Shown: positions 39,975 to 41,333 of the stretch, piece by piece | Layout of the letters: every line of letters begins with the position of its first letter | Numbering within the stretch: position 1 is the stretch's first letter | NCBI GenBank assembly: GCA_027012135.1 | Contig: JALUZF010000252.1 | Location: forward strand, 1 to 51,555 | Source of the DNA: Gammaproteobacteria bacterium | GTDB lineage: Bacteria > Pseudomonadota > Gammaproteobacteria > GRL18 | DNA: 51,555 nt | Reading direction: 5' to 3' | Position numbers and translations under genes: made by a program | Notes under the pieces: generated by a model | Databases searched by the model: none | What the model was told of the DNA's origin: nothing | What the model saw: only the letters and a program-made list of their open reading frames with translations

Positions 39975-40508
39975 ATGAACATTTATCACATTAAATTTAT
40001 CTTACTGATATTACTTACTCTGTTCACAGGCATCGCTTATTCAGAAACTCAGACTAACCTGTTCCCCATATCATCAGCCATATCTTCAGGTGTTATAAAA
40101 ACAATCCATGTAACAGAAGGACAAACCGTCAAAAAAGGTGACTTAATGTTTGAATTTGATGATCGCCTGATTAACAGCAATCTTGAAGAAGCACAGGCCA
40201 ATGTGCGCATGGCCAGCCTGAAAGCCAGTGAAGCTAAAAAAGAGGTTGAGCGTTCTATAGAGCTGTACGAACGTACCCTCCTGTCAGACTACGATTTACA
40301 GCAGTCCAGAGTCAAATACCGTGAAGCACAGGCTGAACTGGCCCAGGCTAAAAACAAGCTGGTACATGTTCAATGGGACAGGGATTACAGCAAGGTCTAT
40401 GCACCTTTTAATGCCCGGGTTAAGACATTAAAATGCTATTCCGGCTGTTATGTTAATAATAATTTTTCCACTCAAACCATCCTGATTTTAGAAAAAAAAG
40501 TAAAATGA
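39975..40508 (+). CDS. Short HlyD-type periplasmic adaptor protein
   Basis: A 177-residue protein with a signal peptide (about 1-22). It has the split biotinyl-lipoyl half-motifs typical of membrane fusion proteins ('SGVIKTIHVTEGQTVKKGDLMFEFDD' and 'DYSKVYAPFNARVKTL') joined by a coiled-coil hairpin (residues 58-130). The membrane-proximal and beta-barrel domains of full-length adaptors (350-400 residues) are absent. Two Cys ('KCYSGCYV') may form a disulfide. GGAG lies 5 bases before the ATG. It probably docks with the TolC-type protein encoded 65 bp upstream; the inner membrane partner is not in the window. Confidence 0.82.
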   Translation: MNIYHIKFILLILLTLFTGIAYSETQTNLFPISSAISSGVIKTIHVTEGQTVKKGDLMFEFDDRLINSNLEEAQANVRMASLKASEAKKEVERSIELYERTLLSDYDLQQSRVKYREAQAELAQAKNKLVHVQWDRDYSKVYAPFNARVKTLKCYSGCYVNNNFSTQTILILEKKVK

Positions 40509-40625
40509 TGTTATTTTATAAAAGGCATCGCTTTTAAGTCCGCAATTCCCTAAACCGATGAATGTTTATACCGGTTATTAATAATATTTTACGAAGAACC
40601 ATTTAAATAGATAAGGTGGTGAAAA

Positions 40626-41333
40626 ATGAAAAAACGATTGATTGGTGCAGTAATAAGCAGCACTGTGTTTATGTCAGCTGCCCAGGCTGCGTTCTGGGAT
40701 GATGGTGACACTAATACTAACTGGGACGGCAGAGCTTATAATAATATGTATAACGATGCTTATGGCAATGTATATAGCCGTGGCTGGAGTGACGGCAGTA
40801 TGGACAGCGATATGGATGGTGATGTAGAAATTACCATTAAAACCCGTTTTCGTGGCCGTGGCCAGGGTAATGCCCGCAGTTCCGCTTATGGAAATGCCTA
40901 TGGCAATAGTTTAAATAACTTGGATAATAATTATCGGACCTACGGTAGTAATTATTATGATAACCGTGGTTATTATGCACCCTATGGTGGTTATGCTCCT
41001 CCTGCTCCCAACAGGGATCAGCAGATAAAGGCTGCCCAGCGTCAGGCTGCAAAAATGAAAGCAGCGGAAGTGCAGGCTGCCAGAGTAAAAGCGGCACAGA
41101 TGAAGGCGGCGGAAATGAAAGCTGCAGAAGTGCAGGCTGCCAGAGTAAAGGCCGCCCAGATGAAAGCAGCGGAAATGAAAGCGGCTGAGGTTCAGGCAGC
41201 CCGGGTTAAAGCGGCTCAGATGAAAGCGGCGGAAATGAAAGCCGCAGAAGTTCAGGCGGCTCGCGCACAGGCAGCGGAAAAAAATGCCCAGACCGGCACA
41301 CAGGCAATTGAGGCTGCACAAAAGCCTCAGTAA
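40626..41333 (+). CDS. Sulfur-globule-like secreted protein with pentapeptide-repeat tail
   Basis: A 235-residue protein with a strong AAGGTGG ribosome site and a signal peptide (1-21, ending 'AAQA'). Residues 22-127 are rich in Gly, Asn, Tyr, Asp and Arg ('NTNWDGRAYNNMYNDAYGN', 'DGSMDSDMDGDVEI', 'FRGRGQGNARSSAYGNAYGN', 'YYAPYGGYAPP'), the composition and order seen in sulfur globule proteins that coat periplasmic sulfur deposits. Residues 135-215 are made of about 16 five-residue units of type KAAEM, KAAQM, KAAEV, QAARV, arranged as 60-bp repeats at 41058, 41118 and 41178 plus a partial copy, predicted to be one long alpha helix. The tail is not a known part of sulfur globule proteins. Confidence 0.65.
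   Translation: MKKRLIGAVISSTVFMSAAQAAFWDDGDTNTNWDGRAYNNMYNDAYGNVYSRGWSDGSMDSDMDGDVEITIKTRFRGRGQGNARSSAYGNAYGNSLNNLDNNYRTYGSNYYDNRGYYAPYGGYAPPAPNRDQQIKAAQRQAAKMKAAEVQAARVKAAQMKAAEMKAAEVQAARVKAAQMKAAEMKAAEVQAARVKAAQMKAAEMKAAEVQAARAQAAEKNAQTGTQAIEAAQKPQ
41058..41276 (+). repeat. 60-bp tandem repeats inside the sulfur-globule-like gene
   Basis: Three full 60-bp units (41058-41117, 41118-41177, 41178-41237) and a partial fourth encode the same 20 residues, itself four KAA-type pentads. The units differ mainly at third codon positions, so protein sequence has been conserved while DNA has drifted, a sign of selection on the tail. Confidence 0.9.

Follow-up and report, generated by a model that had tools for sequence, protein, structure and literature searches.

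What anchors, separates and spaces sulfur globules that are coated with protein? To our knowledge, there is no known answer to this question. The window, by which we mean the whole analysed stretch of 51,555 nucleotides, contains a gene of the sulfur globule protein (SGP) type whose product ends in a long repetitive tail, and this locus raises the question of what such a tail could do on a globule. The open reading frame lies exactly where the first-pass annotation had placed it. The gene and its parts are as follows.

40550..40555, + strand: CTAAAC element, possible -10 region, 76 bp upstream of the ATG
40613..40619, + strand: likely ribosome-binding site AAGGTGG, 6 nt before the ATG (from the sequence)
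40626..41333, + strand: pentad-tail sulfur-globule-type protein gene, 235 aa (from the open reading frame and orthologs L008-L018)
40626..40688, + strand: Sec signal peptide MKKRLIGAVISSTVFMSAAQA followed by AF, residues 1-21 (read by eye; helix 5-20 in the AlphaFold2 model)
40689..41027, + strand: SGP-like core, residues 22-134 (alignments A1 and A2; AlphaFold2)
40794..40871, + strand: most conserved core motif GSMDSDMDGDVEITIKTRFRGRGQGN (invariant columns in alignments A1-A3)
41028..41282, + strand: 17 pentads [KQ]AAxx, residues 135-219 (predicted continuous α-helix with flanks, 130-231)
41058..41117, + strand: 20-aa repeat unit 1 KAAEVQAARVKAAQMKAAEM
41118..41177, + strand: 20-aa repeat unit 2
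41178..41237, + strand: 20-aa repeat unit 3
41238..41267, + strand: half unit 4, KAAEVQAARA

Repeat anatomy of the tail

Tandem Repeats Finder reports a period of 60 with 3.4 copies and 84% match at 41053-41257. At the protein level, there are 17 in-register pentads (residues 135-219), each with AA as its second and third residues; the pentads and the 60-bp units described earlier thus stand, and their number, given as about 16, is corrected. Three consecutive 20-aa units (residues 145-204) are residue-perfect and are followed by half of a fourth, and the final 16 residues of the protein are non-repetitive. Summed over the three pairwise comparisons, units 1-3 show 29 nucleotide differences and no amino-acid change. 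Twenty-seven of these differences are at third positions, two are at first positions (synonymous Arg codons) and none is at a second position. When the same number of changes was placed randomly, 5-8 residues changed per pair, and zero was never reached in 2000 trials. The earlier remark that third positions have drifted while the residues are kept is therefore correct, well beyond chance. Unit 1 of the window shows no difference from unit 1 of the ortholog L008, and the two third units differ at two positions, as against seven differences between units 1 and 2 inside the window. The units thus correspond between these closest orthologs, indicating that the array is older than at least the window/L008 split and has been kept by selection on the protein, not generated by recent duplication. 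The repeat anatomy is under purifying selection.

Kinship of the core and sulfur storage

The core (residues 22-134) is rich in Gly, Asn, Tyr, Asp and Arg, and the protein has the traits of the SGP family, namely a Sec signal (read by eye) and a Gly/Tyr/Asn-rich low-complexity mature chain. Against the Pfam SGP model (PF17228), the window protein scores 10.9 bits, below the cut-off of 26.7, and the core alone gave no SGP hit in Pfam, so its SGP membership rests on homology to paralogs. Four paralogs in the same genome share 46-58% identity with it overall and as much as 60% within the core, and three of the four exceed the Pfam cut-off. Eight composition-preserving shuffles of two paralogs gave no SGP match while their native cores do match, indicating that the paralog match is not a composition artefact. 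A profile of the window subfamily and the Pfam SGP model recover several genes in common in other families of our class sample (229 gammaproteobacterial genomes, 33 with and 196 without Pfam-SGP genes). The core is thus homologous to the SGP-type cores of these paralogs by computation, and we regard the window protein as related to the SGPs by descent, if divergent, although it does not reach the threshold of the model itself. The SGP composition that had been noted for the N-terminal half turns out to go with a relationship to SGPs, seen through the paralogs and the genome content.

In the most conserved motif of the core, the acidic run DxDxDG is followed by a strand of alternating hydrophobic residues and by a basic RGxGRG segment. 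Both the acidic run and the strand are present in 75 of 80 loci and in none of the shuffles. VEITI and FNMNF are examples of this strand in the SGP core (window 40794-40871, L002-L087). The motif is electrostatically self-complementary and is therefore a possible assembly element.

We investigated the gene content of the order, which comprises 24 genomes. SGP-type genes are found in all 24, with 1-9 matches each, and dsrA and soxB are found in 20 and 21 of them, respectively, while soxC is found in none. Several members of the order have two full-length dsrA genes per genome (G003, G004, G006, G007, G010 and G012). The genome of the window also contains dsrA, with copies at G000:C125:4371-5582 and G000:C137:19755-20966. 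The presence of rDsr and SoxB genes together with the lack of SoxC suggests that the organism probably stores sulfur. In the class sample, dsrA is found in 29 of the 33 SGP-bearing genomes and in 48 of the 196 others (Fisher p=3.9e-12). Homologs in organisms that never store sulfur, which had been named as evidence against a globule protein, are thus mostly not seen, with four SGP-bearing genomes (G090, G156, G208 and G244) as exceptions having no dsrA. A literature search for proteomics or microscopy of this clade found none, and the related records that we met are MAGs.

The helical tail, its distribution and its relatives

In an AlphaFold2 model built on 26 aligned sequences, residues 1-127 have pLDDT values below 50, so that the core is predicted to be disordered, while residues 130-231 form a single helix (102 residues, about 15 nm) with pLDDT 95-98 over most of its length. 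The mean helix propensity (0.21 kcal for the tail versus 0.64 kcal for the core) agrees with this helix, although AlphaFold tends to render Ala/Lys-rich repeats and lone helices as over-confident helices. The charge is positive in the tail (+5 to +15) and negative in the core (-1 to -5) in all 12 orthologs including that of the window, and the long charged helix proposed in the first pass is supported in both respects. The hydrophobic periodicity of the tail peaks at 144 degrees, and at 95-105 degrees it has no more power than shuffles; the fraction of shuffles with an equal or higher 100-degree moment is 0.99 for the window, 1.00 for L010 and 0.72 for L016. Since a period of five mismatches the 3.6 residues per turn, Met/Val and charged residues are evenly distributed round the helix (the resultant of the polar residues is 0.07). 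The tail is Ala-rich and has i,i+3 but no i,i+4 salt pairs, and the heptad or hendecad periodicity near 100 degrees that marks coiled coils is absent from it. Having no amphipathic face and no heptads and being cationic, the tail resembles neither a globule-surface-binding helix nor a coiled coil.

We retrieved 11 pentad-tail orthologs (L008-L018), and in the order, about 13 of the 24 genomes reach a full-level score. The gene is missing from some near-complete members (for example, G003 and G004), indicating that it is dispensable. Across the 12 orthologs, the tails range from 41 to 101 residues and from 6 to 18 pentads, so the repeat number, which was expected to vary, does vary between species. 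They consist of a conserved ancestral block with separate expansions, in which the unit is 20 aa in the window clade and 25 aa in L010 and L011, and many tail-pentad columns are invariant over the 12 species. With the tail alone as query, only SGP genes of the pentad-tail family were matched in the 229 gammaproteobacterial genomes. The isotropic cationic tail is thus a distinct version, seen only in this order within the sample. A core tree is compatible with either one or several origins of this tail (four label changes on the best tree). In the same tree, L003 groups with L005, L035 and L057, which are cores of the same genus with different tails, as if the cores within a genus had been exchanged or converted between paralogs, the tails staying distinct.

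The genes neighbouring the orthologs differ in nearly every genome. On the other hand, an exact CTAAAC is found upstream of nine of the 12 orthologs and CTATAC upstream of a tenth, where 6.7% is expected by shuffling. In several orthologs, this element is 17 bp from a TTGTTA/TTTACA-like box, and the window itself has a weak -35 partner. The kept element and the differing neighbours suggest that the pentad-tail gene is most likely its own transcription unit. No regulatory RNA near the gene was matched in Rfam.

Among known proteins, the SgpA, SgpB and SgpC proteins of Allochromatium vinosum (PF17228) resemble the window protein in being Sec-exported, in having a Gly/Tyr/Asn-rich low-complexity core and in belonging to rDsr-type sulfur oxidisers, and paralogs in the window genome pass their Pfam model. 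They are small proteins of 11-13 kDa (PMC10386293), whereas the window protein is extended by a helical pentad tail some 100 residues long and itself scores below the Pfam cut-off. SgpD (Alvin_2515) is an exported protein with predicted long helices and is the most abundant globule protein of A. vinosum; it co-localises with the globules but is not essential for making or degrading them, and its gene adjoins an exporter gene (PMC10386293). A mild phenotype for the pentad-tail protein would thus be unsurprising. Compared by description, SgpD has a helix of about 46 residues on the N-terminal side and P-x2-P repeats, and KAA pentads are not reported for it.

Closer in architecture are L003 and its relatives and, in other families, L104, L105 and L114, which combine an SGP-like core with a C-terminal charged helix. 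The helix of L003 is predicted at residues 150-191 with block-mean pLDDT values of 77-89 over most of it. These tails differ from the pentad tail in being amphipathic (98-100 degrees), less uniform and rich in i,i+4 K/E pairs, and that of L106 is intermediate. Helical tails are thus a recurrent SGP architecture. What the first-pass annotation took for a fusion without known precedent is a conserved order-specific subfamily, common to many genomes of the order, among SGP-type proteins with helical tails.

Among known periplasmic proteins, the closest analogue of the tail is domain II of TolA, an Ala/Lys-rich helical rod with tandem repeats in Escherichia coli (PMC3477136, PMC12204202), in which the repeat number varies from 8 to 16 between strains and affects stress tolerance (PMC3477136). 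Unlike TolA, the window protein has a cleavable-type signal, no membrane anchor and no domain III. The likeness is an analogy and not homology. The TolA of this genome is a separate gene (C289:19168-20079) with different repeats, and we rejected a derivation of the tail from it.

Several groups of SGP paralogs have recurrent neighbours. Amphipathic-tail SGP genes (L058, L061, L062, L079, L084 and G000:C289) are found downstream of a CpoB-like gene with a TolA-binding trimerisation domain; that of the window genome shares a contig with tolA, at a distance of 5 kb, and the L003 type lies near tol-pal genes. Another group lies between RND-type permease and ParA/MinD-like ATPase genes (L004, L028, L033, L037, L038, L046, L047, L059, L065, L072 and L077). 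A third directly follows genes that we named TusA-like and ThiI-like (sulfur-relay type) from their sequences by eye (L005, L020, L023, L025, L035, L056, L057, L063, L064, L068, L080, L081 and L087).

Possible roles of the tail

The reading to which we give an even chance is that the protein is a divergent, exported SGP paralog with its core in the globule coat and its stiff tail serving as a spacer, brush or electrostatic tether. The Sec signal would export the protein to the periplasm, where the low-complexity core would become part of the globule's protein coat. At the C-terminus, 40-100 residues would form one stiff, solvent-exposed, lysine-rich α-helix, and since it has no greasy face, this rod would project from the coat, either spanning the gap from globule to envelope or keeping globules from fusing with one another. 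That related species retain the rod at differing lengths also suggests that it protrudes from the globule. Gaining or losing pentad repeats would tune the length of the rod (6-15 nm). Against this reading, a solitary helix might bundle with others where the coat is crowded, even though it has no heptads.

Alternatively, the tail could be a self-association or surface-binding helix that strengthens the coat by coiled-coil packing or by lying on sulfur or membrane. The other helical SGP tails probably work in this way, given the periodicity of those in other families and in the same-genome sister subfamily L003, and a coiled coil has been proposed for SgpD of Allochromatium (PMC10386293). For the pentad tail itself we regard it as unlikely, as neither a 100-degree moment nor heptads nor i,i+4 salt pairs are found in this Ala-rich, net positive helix. 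The cationic tail could also act as a polycation that binds the acidic SGP cores (DxDxDG), polysulfide or other anions, or peptidoglycan/LPS, and so glues the coat or concentrates substrate. The opposite charges of tail and core in every ortholog fit this idea, as does the fact that, in all paralogs, conservation of the core is highest in the acidic run. It nevertheless seems doubtful to a high degree, for charge alone is weak evidence and paralogs having no pentad tail presumably assemble too; it also overlaps with the spacer model.

That the tail folds as a β-helix of the pentapeptide-repeat kind is very improbable. The A-[EQR]-[MVI]-[KQR]-A pattern fits the A(D/N)LXX register of right-handed pentapeptide-repeat β-helices, in which 20 residues make one coil, and there are matches to pentapeptide-repeat structures (best 1.3e-10), to Pfam Decapeptide (1.1e-13 for the tail alone) and to NCBIfam Alr5209 (3e-6). 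However, these matches reflect an Ala-rich sequence with period five. The hallmark positions have no D/N (i-1), no L/F (i) and no Gly, helix-favouring residues occur throughout, the 25-aa units of L010 and L011 are not whole coils, and AlphaFold gives the continuous high-confidence helix. We thus rejected both the pentapeptide-repeat β-helix and a kinship with the decapeptides of DotG/IcmE as matches of period five and composition only; a literature search on DotG pentapeptide repeats found nothing. We also see scarcely any likelihood that the gene and those beside it act together in export. In the window, it is immediately preceded, in the same orientation, by genes for a TolC-type outer membrane channel and a truncated RND-type adaptor, and A. 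vinosum sgpD and one paralog group adjoin RND-type exporters. The adaptor at 39975-40508 has 177 aa and adjoins the TolC-type gene, with no permease nearby. However, the orthologs have different neighbours, among them porin, FMN-binding and PepSY genes (L008 and L009), scpA-scpB (L013) and RelA/SpoT (L014), and the CTAAAC element is kept despite these changes. An operon with the TolC and adaptor genes was rejected and is largely refuted by the absence of synteny in the 11 orthologs, and the adjacency in the window is most likely incidental.

Returning to the spacer or tether reading, a further and tentative possibility, which we hold to be less probable than not, is that the repeat number is under selection and sets the globule-envelope or globule-globule distance, and that the type of helical tail divides the jobs of the paralogs. 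If so, the positioning of globules in the periplasm would be physically encoded by tandem repeats, and amphipathic and isotropic cationic tails would give coat paralogs separate jobs on one globule. SGP-type proteins form a modular family with a common core and exchangeable tails, a modularity that standard annotation overlooks, as the window protein receives no Pfam SGP call. With its conserved rod of variable length, this coat-type protein offers a concrete candidate for what anchors, separates or spaces sulfur globules.
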